From Sandarakinorhabdus sp. (GTDB lineage Bacteria > Pseudomonadota > Alphaproteobacteria > Sphingomonadales > Sphingomonadaceae): 35,932 nt of DNA. Numbering within the stretch: position 1 is the stretch's first letter; each line of letters starts with the position of its first letter. Below the pieces are notes generated by a model, which saw only the letters and a program-made list of their open reading frames with translations, was not told where the DNA came from and made no database searches. Shown one piece after another: positions 1 to 15,484 of this stretch. The stretch is taken from contig JAIMJL010000023.1 of assembly GCA_020693225.1 (NCBI GenBank), forward strand, positions 1 through 35,932, written 5' to 3'. The position numbers and the translations under genes are program-made.

Positions 1-1331
1 CTGCGATCCCCATAGAAGCGGTCATATTCCGCCTCACCCCGGCCGAAATCCGGATCGATCCCCTCCTGCGCTCCGGTATTGAAACGGGCCACCGTAGAAT
101 CCAAGGCATCCGGCGGAACCCCGATTGCCGCCGCCAGTGCGCGCAGGTCGGGTGCCACGGTCATCCAGTCTGGCACATCGGCACCGGGCATGGCGGTGGC
201 AACCGGATTCTGGCTCTTGTAAGCCTCGTCGAACAGCAGCCATGCAAGCCTGTTTGCATAGGAGTAGCTGGCCGGATCGAAGGCATGAAAGGCCCCGGCA
301 AGTGCGGAATAGTTCACGGCTTCGTTGCAGAAACGTTTGCCCTGGCCGTTGATGATGATGCTGCCCGGAAGGGTGCGTTCGATCAGCACCGGCACGGCCC
401 GTGGGGATCCGTCGTCCCAGCTTTCCTCGGTCACGATCGTCGGGCACCACCATGCGCTTGTCATGTTGCCGAGCGCTGCACCCGCCGCCATCGCCAGCTG
501 CAAGCCATCGCCGGTGTTGGTGGGGGGCGATGCCGGATGGGCAATCGGCCCGCGCAGGAAGCAGCGGGCGAGCTCGGCATTCCATTCGAAACCGCCGGTG
601 GCGATGATCACTCCGCGCCCGGCTATCAAATTTTCCGATGCCGACATTTCTACTCCGACAACCCGCCCGTCGGTCACCACAAGCGCCCGCACGCCCATGC
701 CCAGCCGGATTTCCACCCCGGCCTTCAGGCACGCTTCCAGAAGACCGGCCACCAGCGATTGCCCGAAGCCGCGCTCGTCGCGCCCCACTCGCGCCGCCAG
801 GATTTCGCCAGCCGGCATGGCCGTCGCCCCGCCCAGTGGCGTTTCCGCGACCGTCAGGGGATAGACGGTGCCGACCGTGATCCGCTCTTTCCATTTGCCC
901 AGTTCGGAATAGGGAAACAGCCCGCTGTCTAGCGCGCGTCCGCCCTGCGGCCGCGCCCCGGGGCGATCCATATAATAATCCGGATAGCCTTGCAGCGGCG
1001 TCAGTCGAACCCGGCTGTTCGCCTCCAGAAAGCGCATGGCCGCAGCGGCATTGTCTACAAAGGCTTCCAATGTCTCCGCCCGGATGTCGCCACCTTCCAG
1101 CGCATGAAAATAGGCCAGCGCCTGCTCCCGGTCATCTGGATCGGATGCATCGATATGGTCATTCATCGGCGCCCAGATGATGCCGCCGGAAACGGCGGCG
1201 GTCCCGCCAAGCTTGTTAGACTTTTCCAGTATCAGCACCCGCGCGCCGAGGGCGGATGCCGCGAGCGCCGCCATCATGCCGGCCGCCCCTGCCCCGATGA
1301 CGATAACATCGGCCGCTTCCGCCTGCTGCAT
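1..1331 (-). CDS. FAD-dependent oxidoreductase, 3-ketosteroid dehydrogenase-like (C-terminus cut by window edge)
   Basis: The frame is open from an ATG at 1331 down to base 1, giving about 443 residues with the C-terminus missing. The start is preceded by GGGAGG. The N-terminus has a Rossmann dinucleotide motif (GAGAAG at residues 13-18), an acidic residue at the end of beta-2 (E36), and the GGTAAVSGG stretch (42-50) typical of the FAD_binding_2 family (fumarate reductase / KstD). A PDYY motif at 117-120 and a Tyr after a later NEA motif lie where 3-ketosteroid Delta1-dehydrogenases carry catalytic tyrosines. This is from family knowledge, not an alignment. KstD enzymes introduce a ring double bond using FAD. 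The gene is divergent from the TonB receptor operon and probably shares its control region. Fumarate-reductase-like or other ene-forming flavoproteins remain possible because the C-terminal catalytic part is not visible. Confidence 0.85.
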   Translation of the reverse strand, partial: MQQAEAADVIVIGAGAAGMMAALAASALGARVLILEKSNKLGGTAAVSGGIIWAPMNDHIDASDPDDREQALAYFHALEGGDIRAETLEAFVDNAAAAMRFLEANSRVRLTPLQGYPDYYMDRPGARPQGGRALDSGLFPYSELGKWKERITVGTVYPLTVAETPLGGATAMPAGEILAARVGRDERGFGQSLVAGLLEACLKAGVEIRLGMGVRALVVTDGRVVGVEMSASENLIAGRGVIIATGGFEWNAELARCFLRGPIAHPASPPTNTGDGLQLAMAAGAALGNMTSAWWCPTIVTEESWDDGSPRAVPVLIERTLPGSIIINGQGKRFCNEAVNYSALAGAFHAFDPASYSYANRLAWLLFDEAYKSQNPVATAMPGADVPDWMTVAPDLRALAAAIGVPPDALDSTVARFNTGAQEGIDPDFGRGEAEYDRFYGDR

Positions 1332-1408
1332 GATGAGCCTCCCGCACTGCTTGACGTGAAACTCCACGCAATGTCGGGCTGGCGCACCTGTTCATATCAA
1401 TAACTGCC

Positions 1409-1423
1409 CAATACGCGGTATTG
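1409..1423. promoter_or_regulatory. Perfect inverted repeat, candidate operator A
   Basis: CAATAC and GTATTG form 6-base perfect arms around GCG. The site lies in the 187-base region between the divergent KstD-like gene (start 1331) and the TonB receptor (start 1519). It is a plausible binding site for a dimeric regulator. The regulator is not in the window. Confidence 0.45.
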
Positions 1424-1428
1424 CCACG

Positions 1429-1451
1429 CCATAAGCAAAGCCATCTTATGG
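1429..1451. promoter_or_regulatory. Perfect inverted repeat, candidate operator B
   Basis: CCATAAG and CTTATGG form 7-base perfect arms separated by 9 bases, 5 bases after operator A. It lies in the same divergent control region, 68 bases upstream of the TonB receptor start. The arm sequence differs from operator A, so two different proteins, or an operator plus an mRNA hairpin, are possible. Confidence 0.45.
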
Positions 1452-1518
1452 TAAACGGGATAGCGCAGGCAGATCGGCCACAAGAGCAGTCGCCAGCGCA
1501 GCTTTGGGGAGAAGACCG

Positions 1519-3828
1519 ATGCACTCGACACATGCTGTTCTGAAACTGGCCTTGTTGTGCGGTGGCGCGATGATCAGCACCGTCGCAACCGCCCAGGAAA
1601 GCGTGGCCGCCGCGCCCGCTGGGGCAGAGCGCGTGGATGGTCTGGGCGATATCGTTGTCACCGCGCGGTTCCGCAGCGAAAATCTGCAAACAACGCCATT
1701 GTCCGTCAGCGCGCTCGACGCCAGCAAGTTGCAGACCTTCGTGGTTGTCGATGTGCAGAGTGTACAGCGCTTCCTGCCGAATGTGCAGCTCAGCCGCATC
1801 GCCTTTGCCGGCAATGCGCTGGGTGCCTCCATCCGCGGCATCAGCTTTGCCGATCTGGAAAAAACCTTCGATCCGGCCATCGGCGTGGTGATCGACGGCG
1901 TGTTCCTTGGCACCAACACTGGTGCCAACGTCGATTTCGTGGACGTGGAATCGATCGAGGTTCAGCGCGGGCCGCAAGGCACGCTCTATGGCCGCAACAC
2001 CATCGGCGGCACGATCAGTGTTCGCCGTACACGGCCCACCGGTGAGCTTGGCGTGCGGCTGCACGGCCGCTACGGCAGCTTCAACACCTATGATCTGGAT
2101 GCGATCGTCAATCTGCCGAAAATCGGCGATGTGATGTCGGTCAAGCTGTTTGGCCTCAGCCGCAAATCCGACAGCTTCACCCGCAACCGGACCACCGGCG
2201 AGCGCGAGGACGGGCGCGATTACTGGAATGTCGGCGGCGCCGTGCTGCTCGATCTCGGCCCGGATACCACCCTGCTGGCATCGGTCGATTATCAGCAGGA
2301 TCGCAGTTTTTTCCCCTCGGTCATCAACCTCACCAAGGCCAACGGCCTGCCCTTTGGTGGGGGCGGCACCATCTGCGACTTCACCAACGCCATCGGTTTT
2401 GGCGATCTCGCCTGCGACACGCAGGGCGTGATCCGCCAGCGCGCCGAGGACTTCAAGATCGCCAACACCAGCATTCCGTTTCTGAGCTGGATCGAAGGCT
2501 GGAATACCTCGTTCGAGTTCAAAACCCGGTTCGGTGATTGGGACCTCACTGCCGTTACCGGCTATCGCAGCACCCACGATCAGATCGTCGAAGAAAACAG
2601 CGGCACCCCGCCGGTGCCAATCGCACCCGGCGTGACCCTGCCTTTGTTCGTGGCCGCGCGCGACCAGAGCTACAAGCAGTTCAGCCAGGAAATCCGCCTG
2701 GCCGGCGAAGTGACCGACTGGATGGATCTCATTGTCGGCGTCTATTATCTGCACACCGACTACAATATCCGGCCAGCCGTGTATCAAGGCGCACGCACCG
2801 GCAGCGCTTTCCTGTTGAACGGCCCGATCCAGAGCTTCACGGCGGCGCAGAAGCTGGACAGCTATGCCATTTTTGCGGAATCGATTTTCAACCTGTCAGA
2901 CACGGTTCGGCTGACGGTCGGCGGCCGCTACACAACCGAAACCAAGAAATTCAACATCCAGCAGTCCAGTGCACCAGCCTTCACCGCCGAGGCGGAAGCA
3001 ACCTGGAGCGATCCGACCGGCCGGGTCATCCTGGATTGGCGGCCGAACGACGACACGATGTTCTATGGCAGCTGGTCGCGCGGCTTCCGCTCGGGCGGTT
3101 TCAACGGCCGCGCCACCTCCGCCACCTCCATCGGGCCCTATGATCCGGAGCGGGTGGACAGTTTCGAGGCAGGCATGAAGGCAGACTTCGCCGATGGTAC
3201 CATTCGCTTCAACCCGGCGGTGTTCTGGGCGGAATACACCAACAAGCAGGAAGAAATTATCCGCGCCAGTGGGGCGGCCACCGAAACCATCGTCGAAAAT
3301 GCCGCATCCGCGCGGATCCGCGGCATCGAGCTGGACTTCCAGGCACGGCCGATCCCCGAGCTGTTGCTGCGAGCGTCGGGAGGCTATCTCGATGCCAAAT
3401 ACAAGAGCTTCCTGATCCCCGACCTCGCCAATCCGGGCAAGGAAATAGACGTGGCGGATCAGCGCAATTTCCGCCGTGCGCCGAAATGGACGCTGTCTGC
3501 CGGCGGGGATTATACGCTGGGTCTGAACGAGCAGAACGACCTCAACCTGGCGATCAACTTCGCTTATATCGACGCAATCACCACCTCGCCGCAGAAAGAC
3601 CCGACCGGGGACCGTCGCGACATCATCGACAGCCACAGCAGCCTCGATGTCACGCTGGCCCTGCTGCACAGCAGTGATACCATCAAGAATCTGCGCATCA
3701 GCGCCTATGGCCGCGACCTTTTGAAAGGCGGAGGACGGTTGAGCAATACGCTCGATGCCGGGGTGTTCTGGTTCGGCGTGGTTTCGCCGCGGCGTGAAAT
3801 GGGCATCGAGGCGACGCTGCGCTTCTAG
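1519..3828 (+). CDS. TonB-dependent outer-membrane receptor
   Basis: This is a 769-residue receptor that would import a substrate across the outer membrane using TonB/ExbBD energy. The ATG at 1519 is chosen over an upstream in-frame TTG (1504) because GGGGAG sits just before it and a clean signal peptide follows, with likely cleavage after ATA near residue 26. A TonB-box-like segment (DIVVTAR) follows, then a plug domain with the RGPQGTLYGRNTIGG signature, then a long beta-barrel that ends in a terminal aromatic (LRF). It heads the plus-strand catabolic run. The next gene starts 22 bases after its stop. The genes downstream suggest that it takes up the substrate of the SDR and Rieske enzymes. 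The ligand cannot be read from sequence. Confidence 0.93.
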   Translation: MHSTHAVLKLALLCGGAMISTVATAQESVAAAPAGAERVDGLGDIVVTARFRSENLQTTPLSVSALDASKLQTFVVVDVQSVQRFLPNVQLSRIAFAGNALGASIRGISFADLEKTFDPAIGVVIDGVFLGTNTGANVDFVDVESIEVQRGPQGTLYGRNTIGGTISVRRTRPTGELGVRLHGRYGSFNTYDLDAIVNLPKIGDVMSVKLFGLSRKSDSFTRNRTTGEREDGRDYWNVGGAVLLDLGPDTTLLASVDYQQDRSFFPSVINLTKANGLPFGGGGTICDFTNAIGFGDLACDTQGVIRQRAEDFKIANTSIPFLSWIEGWNTSFEFKTRFGDWDLTAVTGYRSTHDQIVEENSGTPPVPIAPGVTLPLFVAARDQSYKQFSQEIRLAGEVTDWMDLIVGVYYLHTDYNIRPAVYQGARTGSAFLLNGPIQSFTAAQKLDSYAIFAESIFNLSDTVRLTVGGRYTTETKKFNIQQSSAPAFTAEAEATWSDPTGRVILDWRPNDDTMFYGSWSRGFRSGGFNGRATSATSIGPYDPERVDSFEAGMKADFADGTIRFNPAVFWAEYTNKQEEIIRASGAATETIVENAASARIRGIELDFQARPIPELLLRASGGYLDAKYKSFLIPDLANPGKEIDVADQRNFRRAPKWTLSAGGDYTLGLNEQNDLNLAINFAYIDAITTSPQKDPTGDRRDIIDSHSSLDVTLALLHSSDTIKNLRISAYGRDLLKGGGRLSNTLDAGVFWFGVVSPRREMGIEATLRF

Positions 3829-3850
3829 GAAGATCGGGGAGAGCGGACAT

Positions 3851-4654
3851 ATGGGACGACTGGCTGGCAAGGTTGCCATCATAACCGGAGCCGCCAAGGG
3901 GTTGGGCGAAGCCGACGCAAAGCTGTTTGCGGCACAGGGTGCGAAGGTCATCGTCACCGATGTGGACGTGGCGGCCGGAGAACAGGTGGCAGTACGCATC
4001 GGCGGCCAGTTTCATCGCCTCGATGTTCGCCACGAGGCCGAATGGGAAGCACTGATCGCCCGGGTTGTGGCCGAGCATGGCCGGCTGGACATCCTGGTGA
4101 ACAACGCCGGCGTGGTGGAAATAGGCACGCCTGAATCGGTCAGCGAAGCCGGCTACCGCTTCGTGATGGCGGTCAGCGTCGATGGCACTGTGTGGGGCTG
4201 CAAGCACGCCATCCCTGCCATGCGGGCGTCCGGCGGCGGCTCGATCATCAACATGGCCTCGATCGCTTCGCTGCAAGGCGAACCCTATGTTGCCGCCTAT
4301 TGCGCCGCCAAAGGCGCAATCGAAGCCTATACCCGCGCCGTCGCCGTCTATTGCGCGCAAGGGCAAATGAACATCCGCTGCAATTCCGTGCACCCGTCCG
4401 GTATCGATACCCCCATGGTGCGGTCGATGCCCGACAAGGTGGCGCAAGCCGACTTGCCAACCCTCGGCGAGCAGGGCCAGGGGGCCGGGTTGAACCGGCT
4501 CGGCGAGCCGGAGGACATTGCCCACATGCTGCTGTATCTGGCATCCGACGAGTCGCGCTTCGTGAGTGGTCAGGCCTTTGTCATCGACAACACCGCCTCG
4601 ATTACCGAAGGCATTGTGCCGAACGGGTCCGGCAAATCGGCCAGCGGAGGCTGA
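3851..4654 (+). CDS. Short-chain dehydrogenase/reductase, hydroxysteroid dehydrogenase-like
   Basis: This 267-residue classical SDR would oxidise or reduce an alcohol/ketone with NAD(H). The cofactor motif TGAAKGLG is at 12-19. Asp37 after beta-2 favours NAD over NADP. NNAG is at 84-87, and catalytic Ser137, Tyr150 and Lys154 are present (MAS...YCAAK). The spacing, the INMAS segment, the NSVHPSGI segment and the LASDES segment resemble Comamonas 3beta/17beta-hydroxysteroid dehydrogenase as I recall it. Cyclopentanol-type dehydrogenases are close alternatives. An oddity is that the helix-4 position, usually Asn in the N-S-Y-K tetrad, appears to be Ser109 (VSVDG). The ATG at 3851 is used; the longer frame from 3755 would overlap the receptor gene. 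It is the second gene of the operon and is followed 3 bases later by the NTF2-like gene. Confidence 0.9.
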   Translation: MGRLAGKVAIITGAAKGLGEADAKLFAAQGAKVIVTDVDVAAGEQVAVRIGGQFHRLDVRHEAEWEALIARVVAEHGRLDILVNNAGVVEIGTPESVSEAGYRFVMAVSVDGTVWGCKHAIPAMRASGGGSIINMASIASLQGEPYVAAYCAAKGAIEAYTRAVAVYCAQGQMNIRCNSVHPSGIDTPMVRSMPDKVAQADLPTLGEQGQGAGLNRLGEPEDIAHMLLYLASDESRFVSGQAFVIDNTASITEGIVPNGSGKSASGG

Positions 4655-4657
4655 AAC

Positions 4658-5215
4658 ATGGCCTATGATTTGGCAAAACTGTCTGCCCGCGCGGATATTC
4701 TCGATATTCTGGCGCTCTATACCCACATCATAGACCGGCGGATGTGGCACCGGATGGGCGATTGCTTCCATGACGATGCCAGCTTTCGCTTCGGCGCCAT
4801 CAACGGCAGCTGGCAGCAGTTCGTGGCCGCCGCGCGCGGGGTGATCGATCCGCTCCGCATGTCGCAGCACAAGCTGGGGCAAACGCTGTTTGCCATCGAT
4901 GGCGATCTGGCGATGACCGAAACCTATATGGTCGCCTATCACCGGGTGGCAGCCGATGCCCCGGCAGACGCGGTGTTTCCTGGCGACGGCACCGAGCGCG
5001 ACATCGTGATCGCCGGCCGTTATATCGACCGCTTCGAACGCCGCGGCGGGGTGTGGAAAATCGCGTCGCGAACAGGGCTGACCGACTGGCGCCAGGATGC
5101 ACCCTCCATGGACGCTGGCCTCTATGGCCTGCCGGCCGACTGGCGCGGTGGCATCGGCGAGGCAGACCCGGCGCATGCGGTGTGTCGCCTGCGCGATTCG
5201 CTGGGAGGCGTATGA
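4658..5215 (+). CDS. NTF2/SnoaL-like protein (dehydratase-like or oxygenase small-subunit-like)
   Basis: This is a 185-residue single-domain alpha+beta protein of the SnoaL_4 / NTF2-like superfamily. Residues seen that match the scytalone dehydratase / BaiE pattern are Tyr21, Asp26 (YTHIIDRR), His71 (SQHKLGQ), and a C-terminal arginine before TDW. BaiE and the Sphingobium enzyme Hsh2 of this fold dehydrate 7-hydroxysteroids. Beta subunits of ring-hydroxylating dioxygenases share the same fold and size. GGAGG precedes the ATG. Its TGA overlaps the start of the Rieske alpha gene (ATGATGA context), implying translational coupling. The coupling favours a role with the oxygenase, while the visible Tyr/Asp/His favour a dehydratase. 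Neither is proven. Confidence 0.8.
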   Translation: MAYDLAKLSARADILDILALYTHIIDRRMWHRMGDCFHDDASFRFGAINGSWQQFVAAARGVIDPLRMSQHKLGQTLFAIDGDLAMTETYMVAYHRVAADAPADAVFPGDGTERDIVIAGRYIDRFERRGGVWKIASRTGLTDWRQDAPSMDAGLYGLPADWRGGIGEADPAHAVCRLRDSLGGV

Positions 5216-6540
5216 TGGCAGACTATTCTCCGCCGCCAGCAGGCGTTGATCGCCGCAAGGCGCCCGAACCCGCGCTGGTTACTGGGCCGATCGAAGGCGA
5301 CCGATACAAAAGCCGCGAATTCGCCCAGCGGGAATGGAACGGCTTGTGGACGAAAGTTTGGCTTGTCGGCGCGCTGGAAAGCGACATGCCGGATGCCGGC
5401 GATTTCATGACCGTGGAGCTTGGCAGCGAATCCATCCTGCTGGCGCGCGGCGATGACGGCAGGGTCCGTGGCTTTTACAATGTGTGCCAGCATCGCGGAA
5501 ACCGCCTGGTGGAGGGGGAGCAGGGGTCGCTCGCCGCCTTCACCTGTGCCTATCACGCTTGGCGCTGGGGCCTTGATGGCAGCCTGCTGTCTGTTCCGGA
5601 CGAAGCGGATTTTCCGCAAGGCTCGCCTTGCGGCAAGCTGCGGCTGGAGCCGGTTCGGGTGGAAAGCTTTGCCGGTTTCATATGGTATTGTCTCGATCCG
5701 GACGCCGCGCCGCTGGCAGACTTCCTCGGCGAAGTGGCCGATCACATCGCCAGCTACCGGATGGAGAATATGGTTCGCACCCACTGGGTCACGGTTGAGG
5801 GGCAGTTCAACTGGAAGTGCGTGCAGGACAATTTCAACGAAAGCTATCATCTGGAGTTCGTGCATCCGCAAACCCGTTTCATCATGGAAACGCGCGGGAT
5901 GGAGCACCAGCAGGATCTCTATCCCACCGGCCATGCCCGCATCCTGATCGAAGGCTGTCGCCCGGATCCGCGCTATGCCGACGACCCGGCAGTTGCCGAG
6001 GGAATGCGCGAAGAGCTGGACTTCTGGGGGCTTGATGCCGCGGATTTCGCCGGCCAGGCAACCGACATGCGGGCGGCCCTGCAACGACGCAAGCGCGAGC
6101 TGGGCGCCGAAAAGGGCTATGATTTCGGCCGCTTCAGCGATGACCAGCTGACCGATCACTATCACTACTCCATCTTCCCCAACCTTTCGCTCAGCCTGAA
6201 GCCCGATGGCTGCATCTTCCTGCGCGCCAGCCCGCACCCCGATGATCCGGCCAAATGCCTGTTCGACATGTGGTATTTCACCCTGTTTCCCGAAGGCGTC
6301 ACCGAATATCACTCACACACGATGGATGAGATGGTGTCGGTGGATGCACAGGTTCCGCATGTCACCGGCATCTGGCCGGAGGTGTCCTGCGGCCCGGCGA
6401 TTGATCAGGATGTCCGCATCTGGAACGCCCAGCAAAAGGGGCTTTCCTCGCGCGGCTATCGCGGCGGCTATCTGGCCTGGCAGGAAAGGCGCGTGCGCTA
6501 TCTGCATCAAACGCTCGATCGCTGGCTCGATGCTTCGTAA
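5215..6540 (+). CDS. Rieske non-heme iron oxygenase, alpha subunit
   Basis: This 441-residue oxygenase would hydroxylate an aromatic or alicyclic substrate with O2 and electrons from a ferredoxin/reductase. The Rieske [2Fe-2S] site is Cys91-x-His93 and Cys111-x2-His114, with the classical 17-residue spacing. The mononuclear iron site is in DNFNESYHLEFVH, with likely ligands His212 and His217 and bridging Asp205. The third ligand is probably Asp399 (QDVRIWNAQQKGL). Start codons at 5212 and 5215 are both possible. 5215 is preferred because GGGAGG is 6 bases upstream. It overlaps the stop of the NTF2-like gene. No ferredoxin or reductase gene is in the window, so electron donors must come from elsewhere. 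Confidence 0.93.
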   Translation: MADYSPPPAGVDRRKAPEPALVTGPIEGDRYKSREFAQREWNGLWTKVWLVGALESDMPDAGDFMTVELGSESILLARGDDGRVRGFYNVCQHRGNRLVEGEQGSLAAFTCAYHAWRWGLDGSLLSVPDEADFPQGSPCGKLRLEPVRVESFAGFIWYCLDPDAAPLADFLGEVADHIASYRMENMVRTHWVTVEGQFNWKCVQDNFNESYHLEFVHPQTRFIMETRGMEHQQDLYPTGHARILIEGCRPDPRYADDPAVAEGMREELDFWGLDAADFAGQATDMRAALQRRKRELGAEKGYDFGRFSDDQLTDHYHYSIFPNLSLSLKPDGCIFLRASPHPDDPAKCLFDMWYFTLFPEGVTEYHSHTMDEMVSVDAQVPHVTGIWPEVSCGPAIDQDVRIWNAQQKGLSSRGYRGGYLAWQERRVRYLHQTLDRWLDAS

Positions 6541-6625
6541 GTTTCGCGCGAGGGGCTAGCTGGCACCTGCCGCCTTGTGGCAAGAGGGTGTTTATGCTTG
6601 CCCCTCGATCCCGAAGCGAATCCGC

Positions 6626-9001
6626 ATGTCCAGCCTGACGACCGACACGCGCGCCGAAACCGTGGCGGCGCTGGAAGCCATCGATGACCGGCTGCGCTGG
6701 CTTTCGTCCTGGACAGTGTACAACGCCAACCATTTGCGCCCCAAGCGCGACGGCATGAAGGTGGGCGGGCATCAGGCCAGCTGCGCCTCGATGACAGCAA
6801 TCATGGCCGCGCTCTATTTTCATGCGCTACGGCCGCAGGACAAGGTGGCGGTGAAGCCGCACGCCGGCCCCGTGCTGCAGGCGATCCACTATCTGCTGGG
6901 GCAGCAATCGCTGGAGCAGCTGCAACGCTTCCGTGGGCTGGACGGCGCGCAAAGCTATCCCAGCCGCACCAAGGACCGGATCCCGGTCGATTTTTCCACC
7001 GGCTCGGTCGGGCTGGGCGTTGCCATCACGGCTTTTTCCAGCCTGGTGCAGGACTATCTGATTGCGCATGGCCACCTCGCCGAAGCGGACGCCGGCCGAA
7101 TGATAGCCCTGATGGGTGATGCCGAGCTGGACGAAGGCAATATCTACGAATGCCTGATCGAAGGCTACAAGCACGATATCCGCAACTGCTGGTGGGTGGT
7201 GGACTATAACCGTCAGTCGCTGGACAGCACGACGGCCGACCGCATGTTCCGCCGCTTCGATGATATTTTTGAAACCTGCGGCTGGCGCGTCATCACTCTG
7301 AAGCACGGCAAGCGCCAGCTGGCGGCCTTCGCAAGGCCCGGCGGGCGATCGCTGGAACAATGGATCGAAACCTGCCCCAATGCCGAATTTGCAGTGCTCA
7401 CCTATCAGGGCGGAGCCGCATGGCGGCAGCGATTGCTGGCCGATATCGGTGCCAAGCCGCATGTGAAGACGCTGCTGGAAAGCTTCGACGATGCGGCGCT
7501 GGCTGACCTGATGACCAATCTTGGCGGCCATTGCGTCGAGACATTGATCGATGCCTTCGACAGCGCACAGGACAGCCGGCCAACCCTGTTCATCGCCTAC
7601 ACGGTGAAAGGGCAAGGCCTGCCTCTGGCGGGCCATAAGGACAATCATTCCGGGATGATGAACCCGGCGCAGATCGATCAGCTGCGGCAAAGCATGGGGA
7701 TTGCCGAAGGGGCGGAATGGGAGCCGTTCGGTGGCCTTGGAAACAATCAAGCCGCGAGGCTCAAGGCCTTCGTTGCGGCAAGCGTGCTGGCGCGCAAGCC
7801 AGCGGAACCGGATGCGCCGGCAATCCCGGTTGCGGATCGGCTTCCCGTGCCGCGCGGAGAGCAGCAATCCACCCAGGCGGCCTTCGGCAATGTGCTGCTG
7901 GAGCTGGCGAAATCCGATGCGCCACTGGCCAATCGGCTGGTCACCACGGCGCCGGATGTCACCCAGACGACAAACCTTGGAGCCTTCGTGAACCAGCGCG
8001 GGCTGTTTCGTCGCGCCGCCGTTGCCGATGCCTTCCGCGCCGCCAATATTCCCTCGGCGCAGAAATGGGCCGCAACCACCGCCGGCCAGCATGTCGAACT
8101 CGGCATTGCCGAAACCAATTTCTTCCTGATGCTCACATCTCTGGGCCTTGCCGCGCCGCACTTCGGCACACGCCTGCTGCCGGTGGGCACGGTCTATGAT
8201 CCGTTCATCGCCCGCGGTCTCGATGCCCTGAACTATGGCTGCTACTCCGATTCCCGTTTCCTGCTGGTGGGAACGCCTTCCGGCCTCACCCTGGGGGCGG
8301 AAGGGGGTGCGCACCAATCCATCAACACCCCGCTTATCGGCATGGGGCAACCCAATCTCACCAGCTTCGAACCGGCCTTCGCCGATGAGGTGGCGCTGAT
8401 GATGCGCTGGGCCTTTGCCCATATGCAGCAGCCTGCGGGCGGTTCGGTCTATCTCCGCCTCAGCACCCGCACGATCGCGCAACCGCAACGTCCGGATGCC
8501 ACGTGGGAGGCCGACGCGCTGAAGGGCGCCTATTGGTTGCACAAGCCATCCAGCCCCGCCGATGCCGCCATTGTCTTCAGCGGCGCGATTGCGCCCGAGG
8601 CAATTGCGGCACATGCCCAACTGGTGGAAGACATGCCCGGCCTTGGCCTGCTGAATGTCACCTCACCTGATCTGTTGCACCGTGACTGGTCGGCCAGCAT
8701 GGCCGGGCGCTGGAATGGCGGTCCGGCCAGCCCGAGCCATATCGAAAGCCTGCTGTCGGAACTGGCGCCTGGTGCCGGGCTGGTGACCGTGATCGATGGC
8801 TCTCCGGGTGCTCTTTCGTGGCTGGGCGGCGTCTGCGGGATGCGGGTCTCGCCTCTCGGCGTGGATCGCTTCGGCCAGACCGGCGATCTGCCAGACCTTT
8901 ATCGGCGCTACCGGCTGGACTCCGATGCCATCATCGAAGCCATGGCCGAGCTACTGGCCGGAGGCGGGCCAGCTTGCAACGGCATGCAAACCGGTCGATA
9001 G
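6626..9001 (+). CDS. AceE-like homodimeric 2-oxoacid dehydrogenase E1 / transketolase-family enzyme
   Basis: This is a thiamine-diphosphate enzyme of about 791 residues with the architecture of the AceE-type pyruvate dehydrogenase E1. The ThDP/Mg motif begins GDAELDEGN and ends around VVDYNRQS. The central catalytic Glu is in the segment ELGIAE. The downstream block with LTLGAEGGAHQS and SFEPAFADEVALMM matches the AceE pyrimidine domain. E. coli AceE is 887 residues, so this copy is shorter. The ATG at 6626 is preferred to an in-frame TTG at 6575, though its ribosome site is weak. No E2 or E3 gene is nearby. It lies 85 bases after the Rieske gene on the same strand and probably acts on a 2-oxoacid from the catabolic pathway. 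The substrate is unknown. Alternatively it could be a non-oxidative decarboxylase or a transketolase. Confidence 0.85.
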   Translation: MSSLTTDTRAETVAALEAIDDRLRWLSSWTVYNANHLRPKRDGMKVGGHQASCASMTAIMAALYFHALRPQDKVAVKPHAGPVLQAIHYLLGQQSLEQLQRFRGLDGAQSYPSRTKDRIPVDFSTGSVGLGVAITAFSSLVQDYLIAHGHLAEADAGRMIALMGDAELDEGNIYECLIEGYKHDIRNCWWVVDYNRQSLDSTTADRMFRRFDDIFETCGWRVITLKHGKRQLAAFARPGGRSLEQWIETCPNAEFAVLTYQGGAAWRQRLLADIGAKPHVKTLLESFDDAALADLMTNLGGHCVETLIDAFDSAQDSRPTLFIAYTVKGQGLPLAGHKDNHSGMMNPAQIDQLRQSMGIAEGAEWEPFGGLGNNQAARLKAFVAASVLARKPAEPDAPAIPVADRLPVPRGEQQSTQAAFGNVLLELAKSDAPLANRLVTTAPDVTQTTNLGAFVNQRGLFRRAAVADAFRAANIPSAQKWAATTAGQHVELGIAETNFFLMLTSLGLAAPHFGTRLLPVGTVYDPFIARGLDALNYGCYSDSRFLLVGTPSGLTLGAEGGAHQSINTPLIGMGQPNLTSFEPAFADEVALMMRWAFAHMQQPAGGSVYLRLSTRTIAQPQRPDATWEADALKGAYWLHKPSSPADAAIVFSGAIAPEAIAAHAQLVEDMPGLGLLNVTSPDLLHRDWSASMAGRWNGGPASPSHIESLLSELAPGAGLVTVIDGSPGALSWLGGVCGMRVSPLGVDRFGQTGDLPDLYRRYRLDSDAIIEAMAELLAGGGPACNGMQTGR

Positions 9002-9009
9002 TCTGGATC

Positions 9010-9462
9010 ATGGAAGCACTAACAGGCTGGCTCGGCGGATTTTACATGCCGATGAAGGCGGCCCACGCCACCGTCACCTTCTTCTGGATCGCCGGCCTGT
9101 TCATGCTGCCGCGCTACCTTGCCTATCAGGCGCAGGAAGCACCCGGCTCGGAGCAGGATCGAAAATGGGCCGAGCGCACGGGGAAGTTGCGCACGATCAT
9201 CCTGACGCCATCTCTCGTGGCAGTCTGGCTGCTGGGGCTGATGGTGGCCACCAGCTACGGCATGGCAGGTGCGGGGTGGATTCACACCAAGATCGCGCTG
9301 GCAGTGCTGCTCAGCGGCTATCATGGCTGGATGGTCGGCGTGTCGCGCAAGATGGCGACAGGCGCGCGCCCGCTTTCGGAAAAATCGCTGCGGCGGTGGA
9401 ACGAAGTGCCGGCGCTGGCTACCATCCTGTTCGTGTTCCTAGCGATCCTCAAGCCCTTTTGA
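9010..9462 (+). CDS. hemJ: Protoporphyrinogen IX oxidase HemJ
   Basis: This is a 150-residue integral membrane protein with four predicted helices. It matches HemJ (UPF0093): KAAHATVTFFWIAGLFMLPR with its conserved His near residue 19, an IILTPSL helix, a GWIHTK segment, and the terminal NEVP...LKPF signature. HemJ oxidises protoporphyrinogen IX to protoporphyrin IX in heme synthesis at the inner membrane. The start ATG lies only 8 bases after the E1 stop codon, so it may be read partly from the catabolic transcript. No clear promoter of its own is visible. A generic CopD-family protein is the alternative, but the C-terminal motif favours HemJ. Confidence 0.82.
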   Translation: MEALTGWLGGFYMPMKAAHATVTFFWIAGLFMLPRYLAYQAQEAPGSEQDRKWAERTGKLRTIILTPSLVAVWLLGLMVATSYGMAGAGWIHTKIALAVLLSGYHGWMVGVSRKMATGARPLSEKSLRRWNEVPALATILFVFLAILKPF

Positions 9463-9546
9463 CGGCCCGGCCATAACGCCGCTGGTCAAAATCGCAGCCG
9501 CCTTCGGTCTTGCACTTTGCCACGGCTTCCACCAATCACATTGGCC

Positions 9547-10548
9547 ATGTCCGTCCTGAACCTCTCCGCCGATACCGAGCGTCACGCCCCCACAAGGCTG
9601 GCCGAACCCGATAGCTTCGTTGACGCCCGCGCGGTGTTCGGCGTGGACATCGACATGCAGGTGCCCGCCTTCTCGGTGCCCGATGAGCGCGTGCCCGATC
9701 GCGACGATACCTATGTGTTCGATCCGGAAACCACGCTCGCCATCCTCGCCGGCTTCACCTTCAACCGCCGGGTGATGATCCAGGGCTATCATGGCACGGG
9801 CAAATCGACGCATATCGAGCAGGTCGCCGCCCGCCTGAACTGGCCGTGCATCCGCATCAACCTGGACAGCCACATCAGCCGTATCGATCTTGTCGGCAAG
9901 GATGCGATCGTGCTGCGTGACGGCAAGCAGGTGACCGAGTTCCGCGAAGGCCTGCTCCCGTGGGCGCTGCAAACGCCAACCGCACTGGTGTTTGACGAAT
10001 ATGATGCCGGCCGGCCTGACGTCATGTTTGTTATCCAGCGCGTGCTGGAAGTGGAAGGCAAGCTCACCCTGCTGGATCAAAACCGGGTGATCCGGCCGAA
10101 CCCGTGGTTCCGGCTGTTTGCCACGGCCAACACGGTTGGTCTTGGCGATACGTCCGGCCTGTATCACGGCACCCAGCAGATCAACCAGGGCCAGATGGAC
10201 CGCTGGAATATCGTGACCACGCTGAACTATCTGCCGGCAGAAACCGAGGCGTCGATCATCGCCGCCAAATGCCCGCAAACCGATCCGAAAACGGTGGCAG
10301 CGATGGTGAAGGTGGCAGAGATGACCCGCAATGGCTTCATCGCCGGCGATATTTCCACCGTGATGTCGCCGCGCACGGTGATCACCTGGGCGCAGAATGC
10401 CGATATTTTCAAGAACCTCGGCTTCGCTTTCCGGGTCAGCTTCCTCAATCGCTGCGATGAAGCCGAACGCGGCATCGTGGCCGAATATTATCAGCGGGTG
10501 TTCGGCGAGGAACTGCCCGAAAGCATCGTTTCAAAGGCCCGGCGTTAG
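9547..10548 (+). CDS. cobS: Cobaltochelatase-type AAA+ ATPase CobS
   Basis: This is a 333-residue AAA+ MoxR-like ATPase with Walker A at about residues 80-88 (GYHGTGKST), Walker B at 147-151 (LVFDE), and the CobS N-terminal [12 protein letters not shown] signature. In aerobic cobalamin synthesis CobS and CobT form the chaperone ring that drives CobN to insert cobalt. The ATG at 9547 is used; an upstream in-frame TTG (9517) would give a longer N-terminus. Its TAG stop (10546-10548) overlaps the stop of the convergent acylase gene. The cobT partner is 5 kb downstream, and cobN is not in the window. Confidence 0.93.
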
Positions 10549-12932
10549 CCTTCAGGCTCCAAGGTCAGCGTCCAGCGCGCCGGCCCCGGCAGGAACGGGG
10601 TTGGTTTGCCTTGCACCCAGTCGGTATGCCCGCCGAGATAGTAGGGCGCCAGCGGGTTGCCGCTCTGCCCGCCGGGCATGTGGAACAGGCCTTCCGCCTC
10701 GTGCCCCGGTGAAACGGCAAAGCGTTCGGATGCGCCGAAACCGGGGGCTTGGGCGCGCACCGTGGCGCGGTCTCCCGGAACCGCAACATCGCGCGGATTG
10801 ACGATCCAGCCGAGCGGCTTGATGGCTGCGGCCAGCGGGTGCGAAACGCCGGCCCGCCCATTTTCGCCCCACACATGCCGCTCCAGCGGCCCCTTCACAT
10901 CATCGGCGGTAGCGGCCAGGGCTGCATCGATCAGCGCGTTCCAGCTTTTGTGTCCGGCAGGCACAAGCCCTGCGGGACGTGCCTGCATGAGGCGCCGCAC
11001 CGTGCCTTCGGCCTGCCCCGGAATGAAGCTGCGCCGGCCGGACGCCTTGTCCGGCTTGCCCAGATACCCTGCATAGGTCTGCTCTACGATTTCGCGGCGA
11101 AACCGGTCGATCAGGCGATACCCCACCGCTTCGGGAACCGCGCGTTCGCCCCAATCGCGCACAAACGGGATCATCGGTGCCAGCCGCGGATCATCAGCGC
11201 GCTTCTGCAACTCGGCCAGCAGCGCTTGCTGCCAGAAACGGTTGCGAACCGAAACATCATCCAGCTGGATGGCTAGAAAATCGCGCGGTGCGAACTGCTC
11301 GCGCGCCAGCAGCCGATCGCGGATGCGGCCCGCACGCGCGCCCGCATCATAGCCGCCGTCACCCAGCTTCGCATAGGCATCGCCGCCCATCACCCGGCTG
11401 TTCGCGGTCCAGATCCGGGCATTTGCGGGATTGATCACCGCGGGCGTCTCCTCCGGTGACAGGTCGCCTGCCCACCCTTTCGTGCCATCGGCAAAGCTCA
11501 CGGCATCCTGCCCGCTGAAGCCGAAGCGCCTGGGCACCCGCCCGATGATGGTCCAGCCGATGTTCCCGGCACCATCGCCAACGGTCAGATTTTGCTGCGG
11601 GATGGCGGATTTCTGGCCGATGGCGATGGCCTCGGCAACGGATGCCGCGCGTTCCATTTCCAGCGCTGCGCCCAGCCGGATCGCGCGCGCGTCATGCGCG
11701 GTCCAGCGCATGGCCAGCGTCCGGCCAAAGGCATCCTTGCCGACAATCGGCCCCCAGAGGGTTTCTTCCACCACCAGCGGGCTGCAATCGGCCCGGACAC
11801 ACAGCGATTCCTCTATCCGCTCGACCACGCGTTCGCCCTCGGGGGTGCGATAGTGCCCCGGTTTCCCCGGCACCCAATCGATTACCACCGCATCCGCCGT
11901 GTCGATATAGCTGTTGGTATAACCCCAGGCGACCTTGCCGTTGCTGCCCGCCACGAGGAAAGGCGTGCCGGGCAGGGTCACGCCGGTTGCGTCGACCGGC
12001 AATTCGGCGGAGGTCGCCGCCGGCTTCACAATCAGCCGCGCCCGATACCAGATCGAAGGCACATTCAGCCCCAGATGCATGTCGTTGGCCACCAGCGCCG
12101 CGCCATTGGCCGTCAGCCTGCCGCCCACGGCCCAATTGTTGGAACCAACCATCTCCGGCAGCCGCACATCCACCGCAGCGGCGGGAATCGGCGGCCCCTG
12201 CATCGGCGCCAGCGTAGTCGGCATCGGTGCCTCTGGCAGCACCGAGCCATCCAGCGGCGCATCCAGCTCGGTGCCGAGGGGAAACAGCAGGTCGGCCAGC
12301 GCAACGCCGCCCTTGCGCATTGCCAGCGCCCGATCCATCTCGCGCTGCGGCACCGCGGGTTGCAGGTTCAGATACATGGCGAAAACCGCCAGAACCGTAT
12401 CTTCCGGCAGCCAGGGTTCAGGCGTGCTGCGGGTGATCGCATATTCATAAGGGGCGCCTGCGAGTTCGGCGCTGCCGCGCCGCACCCCCGCCACATAGGC
12501 CGACAGAAGCGCCTTTTCTGCCGGGTCCATGGCTGCCACCATCGCCTGTGCCCGGGCGCGGAAGCGGTGCACGCGGATGCGCCGGTCGATCGCTTCCGTC
12601 GCCGATCCCGACAATTCCGAAAGTTCGCCCGCCGCCAGCCTTCGCAACGTGTCCATCTGGAAAAGCCGCTCCTGCGCATGCAGCCAACCAAGTGCAAAGG
12701 CGAGATCGTGGCGGGTACTGGCGGTCAGCGTCGGCACGCCATCGGCATCCCGCACGATGCGCACAGGTGCCTGCAAGCCCGCAACCTGGATGCTGCCTTC
12801 CAGCAAGGGTCGGCTGCGCTGCATGCTCCACCACAGCCAGCCCGCTGCGAGCAGCGCCAGCAGCACGGCGGCCAGAAGCAGCCACTTCAGTATGCCAAGG
12901 ATTTTGCCCGCCGCTGTTCGCGCTTGTGCCAT
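10545..12932 (-). CDS. Penicillin acylase family N-terminal nucleophile hydrolase, membrane-anchored
   Basis: This 795-residue Ntn-hydrolase would cleave amide-linked acyl groups (beta-lactam side chains, acyl-homoserine lactones or peptides). Residues 11-34 form one hydrophobic helix after a short charged N-terminus, so it is probably an uncleaved anchor or a signal peptide into the periplasm. The nucleophile is predicted at Ser264 in [10 protein letters not shown], where autocatalytic processing would separate alpha and beta chains. The ATG at 12932 is preferred over a TTG at 12986 because GGGAGG lies upstream and the anchor follows directly. Its stop codon overlaps that of cobS on the other strand. 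It is divergent from the second TonB receptor. The substrate cannot be deduced. Confidence 0.9.
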
Positions 12933-13117
12933 GTGCCCCGCAACCTCCCTTTTGCTCCCGCTAAGGCCCGTTGCCCAGGCATTCAAGCGGTCATCCTACT
13001 GTTGCAGTCTGGTTACAGTCATGCGGCAAAGGCTCTGCATGCGTTAACCATACACTTTCCCGGTGAAACCGAGCGGGTGTAAATACCGCCCATAAAGGTT
13101 CTGGGGAGAAGCTTGCC

Positions 13118-15484
13118 ATGTCTGCCAATGCGTTCCGTTATCTCGCTGCTGCCGCCATTGCTGCTCTCGCCACCTCGGGCATGGCGCAGTCCAACCTCGA
13201 ATCAGAGGCCGGTGGAGACATCATCGTGACCGCCACCAAGCGCGATCTCGCGCTGCAGGATGTGCCCTTTTCGATCAATGCGCAGACGGAGGCGATGCTG
13301 CAACGATCGGGCGCGACCACGATCGAGGATGTGTCGCGCAGTGTGGCCGGGCTTTCCATCCAGAATCTGGGGCCGGGGCAGAGCCAGGTTTCGGTGCGCG
13401 GCGTATCGGCCGGGCAGATCGTGCGCGATCAGCCGGGGGTGAAAGAGCAGGTCGGCTTCTATCTCGACGAATCGGTCATTTCGCTCTCGCTGTTCACGCC
13501 GGATCTCGATCTGTTCGATCTGAACCGCGTGGAAACCCTGCGTGGGCCGCAGGGAACATTGTTCGGCTCCGGGTCGGTGGGCGGCACCATCCGTTACATC
13601 ACCAACCAGCCAACCACGGATCGGGTTGAAGGCACGATCGAGGGCAATCTCAATCTGATCGACGGCGGCTCTGTCGGCGGGCATTTGAAGGCGGCGGTGA
13701 ATGTTCCGCTGTCCGACAAGGTCGCGGTGCGCGCGGTCGGCTATTTCACCCAGTTCGGCGGCTTCATCGACGCGCTGGGCGAAAACGGCCAGGTCCGCGA
13801 GAATGTGAACGACGGCTGGCGGCTCGGCGGTCGGCTGGCGGTGGCCTTCACCCCCACCGAGGATATCACCATCACCCCGCGCATCGTCTATCAGGAGGTG
13901 CGCGCCAACGGCTTCAACCGGCAGGAAATCTTCAACCTTTTCGCCAATCCCAACACCACCACCCGGCCGCCGATCCAGCTCCAGGAACGGCAGCAATATC
14001 TGCTGCTGCGCGAGCGTTTCACCGATGATTTCCTGCTGGCGGATCTGAATGTCAGCATCGGTCTTGGCGCCGTTACGCTCACCTCGGTCACCAGCTATGT
14101 CGATCGCGATATCGTGGTCGGCCGCGATGCCTCGGCGCTCACCGGTTCGGTATCGGTCGATCTTGGCTATCCGAACGCCGCCGTGCTGCTGCCGTCCAAC
14201 CTTGTGGATAGCACCAAGGTGCAGCAGTTCACTCAGGAAGTGCGGCTGTCATCCAACACTGATGGCCCGTTCCAGTGGCTGATCGGCGGATTCTATTCCG
14301 ATGTCGATCGCGGCTACACCCAGCGCCTGCCCACCCCCGGCTATGATGCCTTCACCGACGCCGTGCTGGGCGCCGGCACCTCGGCGGCGGTGGCCAATGG
14401 CTTCCCGGCGGACTCGCCCTACAATTCGGATATCCCATACAAGATCAAGCAGAAGGCGCTGTTCGGCGAAGCCAGCTATGCGTTCGGAACGCTGACGGCA
14501 ACCGCTGGCCTGCGCTGGTATGATTTCTCCGAAACCCGCACGTTCAAGTCGGGCGGGCTGTTCGCCAATGGCGACAATGCGCTGGATGAAACCCAGTCCG
14601 ACGGCTTTACGCCGCGATTCCTGCTGTCGTGGAAGGCAAGCGAGGATGTCACCGTCAACGCGCAGGCCTCCAAGGGCTTCCGCCTCGGTGGGGTGAATGA
14701 TCCGCTCAACCTGCCGCTCTGCACGCCGCAGGACGAGGACATTTTCGGCGGTTTCCAGAATTATGATGATGAAACGCTGTGGAACTATGAGGCGGGCGTG
14801 AAGGCCCGCAGCGGCATGTTCACCCTGAATGCCGCCGGATTCTACACCGACATCCGCAATCTGCAGGTTACGCTGGATGCCGGCAGCTGTTCGTCGCGCG
14901 TGGTGTTCAACGTGCCCAAGGCGCACTCGGTCGGCGTTGAGTTCGAGCTGGGCATGAACCCGGGCGCCGGATTCGATTTCTCGGTTGCCGGCAGTTGGGT
15001 GGAGGCGCGCTTCGATTCGACCGTTGTCGATGGCACCGGCGCGGTGCTGGCCGGTATCCGCGAAGGCAATCGCCTGCCATCGGTGCCGGAGTTCCAGATT
15101 GCCGCCACCGCCGGCTATACCGCGCGCCTGTCCGAGCGGGCCGAAGCATTGTTCACCGCCAGCTTTCAGCATGTCGGCTCGCGCTACACCCAGCCAAGCG
15201 ATCAGGAGAACAACCCGCGCACCTTCGTATCGGGCCTGCCCTTCGGCGGAGCCACCGGCATGGTTGGAACAACGGTGGATCTGAAGCTGCCGTCTTACAA
15301 TCTGGTCAACATTTCCGCCGGCGTCCGGCTGGACAGCGGCACCGACGTGTCCGTTTACGCCAACAATCTGTTTGACGAGAATCCCCTGCTGTCGTTCGAT
15401 CGGGAACGCGGCGGGCGGGCACGGCTGGGCTTTTCGATCGGCCAGCCACGCACCTTTGGCGTCACGGTGCGCCAACGCTTCTGA
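13118..15484 (+). CDS. TonB-dependent outer-membrane receptor (second)
   Basis: This is a 788-residue receptor. GGGGAGAA precedes the ATG at 13118. A signal peptide with likely cleavage after GMA (about residue 23) is followed by a TonB-box-like segment (DIIVTATKR), a plug domain with RGPQGTLFGSGSVGGTIRY, and a barrel ending in VRQRF, a terminal Phe suited to outer-membrane assembly. It is divergent from the acylase across 185 bases and is followed by a hairpin and then cobT. The position between the acylase and cobT suggests uptake of the acylase substrate or an independent insertion. The ligand is unknown. Confidence 0.93.
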   Translation: MSANAFRYLAAAAIAALATSGMAQSNLESEAGGDIIVTATKRDLALQDVPFSINAQTEAMLQRSGATTIEDVSRSVAGLSIQNLGPGQSQVSVRGVSAGQIVRDQPGVKEQVGFYLDESVISLSLFTPDLDLFDLNRVETLRGPQGTLFGSGSVGGTIRYITNQPTTDRVEGTIEGNLNLIDGGSVGGHLKAAVNVPLSDKVAVRAVGYFTQFGGFIDALGENGQVRENVNDGWRLGGRLAVAFTPTEDITITPRIVYQEVRANGFNRQEIFNLFANPNTTTRPPIQLQERQQYLLLRERFTDDFLLADLNVSIGLGAVTLTSVTSYVDRDIVVGRDASALTGSVSVDLGYPNAAVLLPSNLVDSTKVQQFTQEVRLSSNTDGPFQWLIGGFYSDVDRGYTQRLPTPGYDAFTDAVLGAGTSAAVANGFPADSPYNSDIPYKIKQKALFGEASYAFGTLTATAGLRWYDFSETRTFKSGGLFANGDNALDETQSDGFTPRFLLSWKASEDVTVNAQASKGFRLGGVNDPLNLPLCTPQDEDIFGGFQNYDDETLWNYEAGVKARSGMFTLNAAGFYTDIRNLQVTLDAGSCSSRVVFNVPKAHSVGVEFELGMNPGAGFDFSVAGSWVEARFDSTVVDGTGAVLAGIREGNRLPSVPEFQIAATAGYTARLSERAEALFTASFQHVGSRYTQPSDQENNPRTFVSGLPFGGATGMVGTTVDLKLPSYNLVNISAGVRLDSGTDVSVYANNLFDENPLLSFDRERGGRARLGFSIGQPRTFGVTVRQRF

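Follow-up and report, generated by a model that had tools for sequence, protein, structure and literature searches.

A candidate island for the catabolism of cyclic hydroxy or keto compounds in a Sandarakinorhabdus genome, and an AceE-like E1 gene that most likely only adjoins it

This study deals with a stretch of 35,932 nucleotides (nt) from Sandarakinorhabdus sp., hereafter the window, which is the whole of contig C52 in the sphingomonad assembly G000 (2.63 Mb, 134 contigs, completeness 98.25). With somewhat better than even confidence, we read positions 1 to 6540 as the right half of a roughly 10.7-kb island for the catabolism of cyclic hydroxy or keto compounds, and the following gene, coding for an AceE-like 2-oxo-acid dehydrogenase E1, as separate from it. 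The island comprises ten genes and spans C1:3-4150, on a second contig, beside C52:1-6540. A first-pass annotation had described six genes, namely those of a KstD-like flavoprotein, a TonB-dependent receptor, a short-chain dehydrogenase/reductase (SDR), an NTF2-type protein (SnoaL1), a Rieske oxygenase (Rieske1) and the E1, as one divergent locus. All six open reading frames (ORFs) lie where it placed them and belong to the expected Pfam families (Table 1), but the locus itself gains five genes on the left and loses the E1 on the right, given the 85-nt gap in front of the latter and the comparative data presented below.

The KstD gene is truncated by the contig end, and a search of the genome with a full-length relative as query located its missing C-terminus at C1:3-272. 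The two halves join in frame, GDR being followed by SRSGAF, which are the same residues as in the relative from genome G338 (locus L201), so that contig C1 adjoins the window on the left. C1 contributes an NmrA protein, three SnoaL genes and a second Rieske oxygenase (Rieske2), laid out as an NmrA gene, a SnoaL gene oriented like KstD and a convergent Rieske2-SnoaL-SnoaL group. The acyl-CoA enzymes for which a leftward extension had been suggested were not recognised in the C1 ORFs examined. Past these genes, a Lnb_N protein (Pfam) and genes that we take from their translations to be a helicase, a release factor and a riboflavin-type gene look like ordinary background. Within the window, the genes from the TonB receptor to Rieske1 are tightly packed, with gaps of 22 and 3 nt and then an overlap of 4 nt.

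The description as a cyclic hydroxy/keto catabolic island rests on gene order and co-occurrence in other Sphingomonadaceae. In G338, which belongs to another genus, a divergent block NmrA-KstD / TonB-SDR-SnoaL is found in the same order (78%, 74%, 75%, 86% and 71% identity, respectively), and a second contig carries Rieske2-SnoaL-SnoaL-SnoaL-Rieske1 (66%, 74%, 53%, 54% and 56%); no E1 match is present in either of these 20-kb stretches. Among 397 genomes of the family, 29 possess the KstD subfamily and 23 the Rieske1 subfamily, and 14, including the one studied here, have both (Fisher p 2e-12, odds ratio 37, uncorrected for relatedness). Membership required 52% identity or more for the KstD subfamily and 49% or more for the Rieske1 subfamily. 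Of the 49 genomes that pass the expectation value (E) limit with KstD, the 20 left out have 47% or less; with Rieske1, 23 of 68 genomes were kept, and the next best stands at 44%. The 18 KstD loci read contain a SnoaL1 relative (11 loci), an AMP-forming ligase (11), a molybdopterin oxidoreductase (9), NmrA (8), a P450 (7), Rieske1 (3), an SDR (3) and a TonB receptor (1). They are 18 of the 19 loci fetched (L211, at 44%, was left out, and the own locus is uncounted) and represent 18 of the 28 other KstD-positive genomes; a neighbour was counted only above set identity limits (35-45%) and over half its length. For loci without a name, the ORFs were chosen by homology, and Pfam was run on the chosen ORFs only. 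In three loci, L142-L144, KstD and Rieske1 occur in a largely common gene order with two P450, an AMP-forming ligase and several SnoaL genes, and also with a molybdopterin oxidoreductase and zinc-type reductases. This arrangement is perhaps a fuller form of the pathway.

With regard to the enzymes, the best match of the KstD-like protein among solved structures is the 3-oxosteroid 1-dehydrogenase 7p18, and the ketosteroid dehydrogenase KSTD1 (4c3x) is matched as well. It shares with them the FAD_binding_2 domain, and alignment of the G338 protein to 4c3x indicates that the residues equivalent to the active-site Tyr, Tyr, Tyr and Gly of KSTD1, which we take to be numbered Tyr119, Tyr318, Tyr487 and Gly491, are kept. 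The Tyr residues of the PDYY and NEAVNY motifs are found in 19 out of 19 sequences, and the third Tyr and the Gly in all 17 that reach that far; the own C-terminal part on C1 reads IYAGAG. The protein is nevertheless a distant one, under every NCBIfam cut-off shown: the full-length G338 relative obtains 405 and 378 bits with the steroid models (cut-offs 788 and 789), and the window fragment 307 and 302 bits. Further, the G338 protein scores slightly higher with 4-oxocyclohexanecarboxylate 2-dehydrogenase (434 bits) than with 3-oxosteroid 1-dehydrogenase (the 405 bits above), both far under their cut-offs, which makes a smaller cyclic ketone no less possible a substrate than a steroid. It is the only KstD-like protein found in G000, the next matches being short (E 3.8e-5).

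The SDR has the 3beta/17beta-hydroxysteroid dehydrogenase (HSD) 1hxh as its best PDB match (E 7.5e-47), and its specificity is not fixed by this match, since R-specific alcohol dehydrogenases score close behind. The Ser137/Tyr150/Lys154 spacing given for it in the first-pass annotation is exact, and the Tyr/Asp/His set ascribed to the NTF2 protein is present as Tyr21, Asp26 and His71 of SnoaL1. In an alignment of SnoaL1 with 45 homologues, Asp26 and His71 are invariant (46/46) and Tyr21 is present in 32 of the 46 sequences. NTF2 lyases of the LinA/BaiE/Hsh2 type harbour an Asp/His dyad, plus a Tyr in BaiE; LinA is a weak PDB match of SnoaL1 (1.9e-5), which can be regarded as a putative lyase or dehydratase of this type. 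An AlphaFold model of SnoaL1 from the single sequence was discarded (mean predicted local distance difference test score 34). In Rieske1, the ligands C92, H94, C112, H115, E210, H213 and H218 are invariant in 24 out of 24 sequences. Most Rieske oxygenases have a bridging Asp, with CntA as a precedent for Glu, and all 24 sequences carry Glu (E210) at this position. The protein has the residue pattern of the Glu-bridged CntA/GbcA type (CxH/CxxH, His pair, Glu), its best model being GbcA, at only 137 of the 670 bits needed, and CntA being among its PDB matches.

The order of reactions that we infer would begin with uptake of the compound across the outer membrane by the TonB receptor. The SDR would convert a ring hydroxyl into a ketone, and the KstD-type flavoprotein would desaturate the ring next to it. 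The two Rieske oxygenases would introduce hydroxyl groups into the skeleton, drawing their electrons from a reductase encoded elsewhere. Through their Asp/His dyads, the four SnoaL proteins may eliminate water or shift a double bond, and the NmrA-type protein could serve as a further NAD(P)H reductase. The gene of the AceE-like E1, a separate 2-oxo-acid dehydrogenase, would adjoin the island by chance. The substrate is probably a polycyclic steroid-like or terpenoid-like molecule; a simpler alicyclic ketone may be considered as well, and the earlier remark that other alicyclic substrates would fit was a fair caveat.

The E1 is a distant relative of AceE, with 176.5 bits against a cut-off of 859.9 for TIGR00759. 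Relatives occur in 97 of 298 genomes of the family (the number covered by the E1 table, those for KstD, Rieske1 and KshA covering 397), mostly at 64-81% identity; two stand at 54-55%, and a few are fragmented. The window protein is about 80% identical to the E1s of several other genera and 69-71% identical to the three same-genus copies read; with a similarity greater outside the genus, it may not have descended straight within it. In G007 C1, G276 C1 and G231 C388, the relative is split into separate pieces, and these copies are perhaps decaying or misassembled. The E1 is absent from the 22 Rieske1 loci and the 18 KstD loci read (three loci are in both sets, and some are cut by contig ends). 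It is carried by 4 of 19 KstD-positive and 4 of 15 Rieske1-positive genomes, versus 97 of the 298 (p 0.32 and 0.78), that is, without association. The E1 loci themselves were studied for the best 80 of 215 relatives, and these show no KstD or SnoaL1 match and Rieske matches of 34% or less. A divergent Lrp/AsnC gene lies within 400 nt in 51 of the 80, the other 29 being without it or cut, and an E2 gene stands directly behind the E1 in 23; a class-III aminotransferase (21) and an amino-acid permease (14) are recurring neighbours. In all four named plasmid loci opened (Novosphingobium, Tistrella, Mesorhizobium and Azospirillum), an Lrp gene is present, and in two of them a threonine synthase or transsulfuration gene is close to the E1. 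In G212, of the same genus as the window, the E1 stands beside a divergent HemJ-like gene, and the locus gave no match to any gene of the island. This HemJ-like gene is a 69% relative of the HemJ-like UPF0093 gene situated 8 nt behind the window E1 (9010-9462; 86 bits, below the curated HemJ cut-off of 138).

The E1 is thus most likely, as judged from neighbourhoods and co-occurrence, a bystander of the island, and the view of the combination with an AceE-like E1 as a unit gives way to that of an independent, widely conserved gene, often linked to Lrp/AsnC. It would be the E1 of a 2-oxo-acid dehydrogenase in its own right, probably serving amino-acid catabolism. By function we take it to be MdeB-like, by way of the P. 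putida mde operon; MdeB of Pseudomonas is a possible functional relative. No paper on that operon was among the matches listed, and the excerpted text of PMC10256816 places aceE/mdeB under methionine catabolism. The window E1 resembles the Lrp-linked AceE-like E1s, annotated as 'transketolase', in being of the homodimeric type; these relatives are often divergent from Lrp/AsnC and sometimes accompanied by an E2, whereas the window gene lacks an adjacent Lrp, and an E2 dedicated to it was not found. The only close E2 found in G000 (62% identical) is on C83 beside a second lipoyl-domain match and is presumably the ordinary pyruvate dehydrogenase E2. A scan of positions 1-9600 yielded 4 promoter-like sites versus 2.3 (standard deviation 1.4) in shuffled sequences and 8 terminator sites versus 7.0 (2.8); with numbers so near those of the shuffles, it neither joins nor separates the E1. 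None of the 4 promoter-like sites falls in the divergent intergenic region, and base composition, in 1.5-kb steps, shows no break at 6540. In Croceicoccus estronivorus MH-B5, the E1 relative is on contig NZ_JRQQ01000003.1, whereas an excerpt of PMC7793797 places the published oestrogen cluster, under the name A. estronivorus MH-B5, on NZ_JRQQ01000001.1; both contigs are taken as one assembly from the strain name and accession prefix.

Several observations weigh against an island so composed and a separate E1. Of the 13 other genomes possessing both KstD and Rieske1, only 3 have the two together in a fetched locus (L142-L144); they are about 34 kb apart in G227 and about 23 kb in G367, and in the remaining 8 they are on separate contigs or 400 kb apart. 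The TonB-SDR part was matched in a single one of the 18 KstD loci, with the molybdopterin oxidoreductase (9/18) and the P450 (7/18) instead or besides. G000 lacks an orthologue of the ligase present in 11 of these loci (best match 47%), and the ORFs examined in the island and on C1 include no recognisable electron-transfer partner (ferredoxin or reductase) or CoA ligase, which makes the pathway here a variant that may be partial. As for the E1, a different Rieske gene, about 30% identical to Rieske1, lies within 10 kb in 21 of the 80 E1 loci. No Lrp gene stands beside the window E1, the best Lrp in G000 being 44% identical, and read-through from Rieske1 is possible, as the E1 start codon (ATG, 6626) is 85 nt behind the Rieske1 stop, on the same strand, and the usual Lrp is missing. 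The three same-genus E1 loci, however, likewise show no Lrp match.

Could the island be a canonical 9,10-seco steroid cluster, or a bile-salt cluster as in Sphingobium Chol11? The structural match and active-site residues of KstD, the proximity of the SDR to 3beta/17beta-HSD, and the dyad of SnoaL1, which we presume to be that of BaiE/Hsh2-type enzymes, are consistent with it, as is the TonB receptor, one being required for efficient growth of N. tardaugens on oestradiol according to excerpts of PMC7793797. However, the hallmark oxygenase KshA is below cut-off in G000 (best KshA_C hit 21.6 bits, cut-off 23.3), and although strong KshA is found in 65 of the 397 genomes, it is present in only 1 of the 29 with the KstD subfamily (p 0.06) and 2 of the 23 with Rieske1 (p 0.4), so that 'no enrichment' is the safe statement. 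Strong means here E below 1e-20, 83 genomes passing the curated cut-off and 96 having any hit; the counts rest on Pfam KshA_C, and it was not tested whether the active KshA homologues of Chol11 (three out of five in a heterologous host, according to part of PMC8540908) carry that domain. G000 has one KstD-like protein versus the eight candidates of C. tardaugens (three Delta1-KstD and five 5beta-Delta4-KstD in the excerpt of PMC12882949), the G338 KstD scores higher with the 4-oxocyclohexanecarboxylate model than with the steroid one, and the EdcA P450, EdcB 4,5-dioxygenase and EdcC indolepyruvate oxidoreductase classes are not represented among the ten island genes (Pfam). A canonical steroid cluster is thus not supported, and we consider it unlikely; of the earlier proposal of a steroid-like or alicyclic cluster, the catabolic island for cyclic hydroxy or keto compounds is supported and the canonical 9,10-seco route is not. 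We regard as decidedly unlikely that the island serves for detoxification or partial biotransformation, modifying a toxic plant or algal polycycle that is not mineralised. Among the ORFs examined in the island and on C1, none could be recognised as coding for a CoA ligase or for an enzyme of ring cleavage or beta-oxidation; the missing ligase orthologue and the small assembly point the same way. A dedicated TonB receptor argues instead for uptake as a nutrient, and later steps could be supplied by other Rieske loci of G000 (C20, C53 and C89) and by other AMP-forming ligases.

The participation of the E1 in the pathway, where it would decarboxylate a 2-oxo acid or cleave a cyclic acyloin or diketone made by the upstream enzymes, is very unlikely. 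It could be suggested by the position of the gene behind Rieske1, by the other Rieske gene near E1 relatives and by the heterotetrameric E1alpha/E1beta and E2 genes, a different type, in 5 of 22 Rieske1 loci and in L169, and EdcC of oestrogen degraders is itself a 2-oxo-acid enzyme of the indolepyruvate oxidoreductase family (excerpt of PMC7793797). Against it stand the absence of the E1 from the Rieske1 and KstD loci, the lack of co-occurrence, the Lrp, E2, permease and aminotransferase neighbours elsewhere and the G212 locus, and we rejected it on these neighbourhoods and co-occurrence data. Finally, SnoaL proteins and Rieske beta subunits both belong to the NTF2 superfamily, and most Rieske1 loci examined have SnoaL genes close to the Rieske1 gene, so the SnoaL_4 proteins might be viewed as beta subunits of the oxygenases; one weak PDB match, the putative dioxygenase beta subunit 3eby (E 0.004), goes in this direction. 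LinA is a better match, Pfam assigns SnoaL_4 with no Ring_hydroxyl_B match, the dyad is invariant, and in G338 the 20 kb read around SnoaL1 contain no match to Rieske1. On the PDB matches, Pfam and the conserved dyad, a role as beta subunits is extremely unlikely.

An island with a separate E1, as we prefer to see it, may be compared with several known systems. The clusters of Caenibius/Novosphingobium tardaugens (edc, SD) and Sphingobium Chol11 were compared by the description of their parts. They have in common with the island a TonB receptor, an SDR, KstD-type enzymes and Rieske/SnoaL-type proteins, as far as the excerpts of PMC7793797, PMC12882949 and PMC8399759 go, but the island has KshA below cut-off, one KstD, two Rieske and four SnoaL genes. 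Plasmids pNL2 of N. aromaticivorans DSM 12444 and p1 of Novosphingobium sp. ES2-1 harbour Rieske2 (46-47%), SnoaL (45%) and Rieske1-like (39-40%) relatives, to which pNL2 adds a TonB receptor (30%) and an SDR (45%) within 20 kb, its cousins being SARO_RS18545 to 18575; unlike the island, these clusters contain an extra P450, a VOC protein and a third Rieske gene, and their FAD enzyme is only 28% identical to the window KstD. In pTomTYG64a of Sphingobium sp. TomTYG64, SDR (45%), KstD (42%) and Rieske (41%) relatives lie within 7 kb, but there is no SnoaL match in the stretch read, and further KstD-like genes, an acyl-CoA dehydrogenase and E1alpha/beta genes are nearby. For the tomato Sphingobium RC1, sapogenin 3beta-HSD and Delta4-dehydrogenase genes have been proposed (PMC10653915, in part), but no link of the pTomTYG64a region to that work was found. 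The gene set is named by no title among the matches listed, which comprise openly licensed PMC papers only and carry little weight for novelty.

A few neighbouring genes and other loci deserve mention. The genes at 9571-10548 and 15572-17413 of the window are presumably cobS and cobT, and between them lie what we take to be a PvdQ-like acylase (10545-12986, minus strand) and a second TonB receptor (13118-15484). Three genomes of the same genus likewise have cobS and cobT apart, by about 7-10 kb, with the acylase matched between them in one. Elsewhere in G000, locus L166 (C20:8001-28000) carries, at 2891-10562, another Rieske gene beside classical E1alpha, E1beta and E2 genes and a TRAP transporter. 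The heterotetrameric E1alpha/E1beta-E2 set is found in the Rieske1-type loci L148, L156, L157, L162, L163 and L169 (N. resinovorum), the last additionally with acyl-CoA dehydrogenases.

Table 1. Features of the left part of the window
Feature	Position	Strand	Basis
KstD-like FAD dehydrogenase, first 455 residues (last 97 codons on C1)	3..1367	-	Pfam FAD_binding_2
Intergenic region from which the KstD and TonB-receptor genes diverge	1368..1518		Between both start codons
TonB-dependent outer-membrane receptor	1519..3828	+	Pfam TonB plug/barrel domains
Classical SDR, 3beta/17beta-hydroxysteroid-dehydrogenase-like	3851..4654	+	Pfam adh_short_C2
SnoaL1, SnoaL_4 (NTF2-like) putative lyase/dehydratase	4658..5215	+	PF13577
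Rieske1, Rieske oxygenase alpha subunit	5212..6540	+	Pfam Rieske and Ring_hydroxyl_A
AceE-like homodimeric-type 2-oxo-acid dehydrogenase E1, judged outside the island	6626..9001	+	Pfam Transketolase_N/PDH_E1_M

Taken as a whole, the ten genes probably form an uncharacterised alicyclic catabolic island, apparently independent of KshA and of a broadly known kind. More speculatively, and rather unlikely as matters stand, it would be one form of a KshA-independent route, shared by a number of sphingomonads, that opens polycyclic steroid or triterpenoid skeletons and in which, just as tentatively, a divergent KstD, two Glu-bridged Rieske oxygenases and Asp/His SnoaL lyases would replace the 9,10-seco enzymes. 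The AceE-like E1 should not be taken as evidence for the chemistry of the pathway, the attractive link between them being probably wrong. The KstD/Rieske pair is common to 14 of the 397 sphingomonad genomes searched and shows no link to KshA, the oxygenase that marks bacterial steroid degradation; together with its distant cousins on named plasmids, it offers clear gene targets for finding an alicyclic or steroid-like degradation route in this family.

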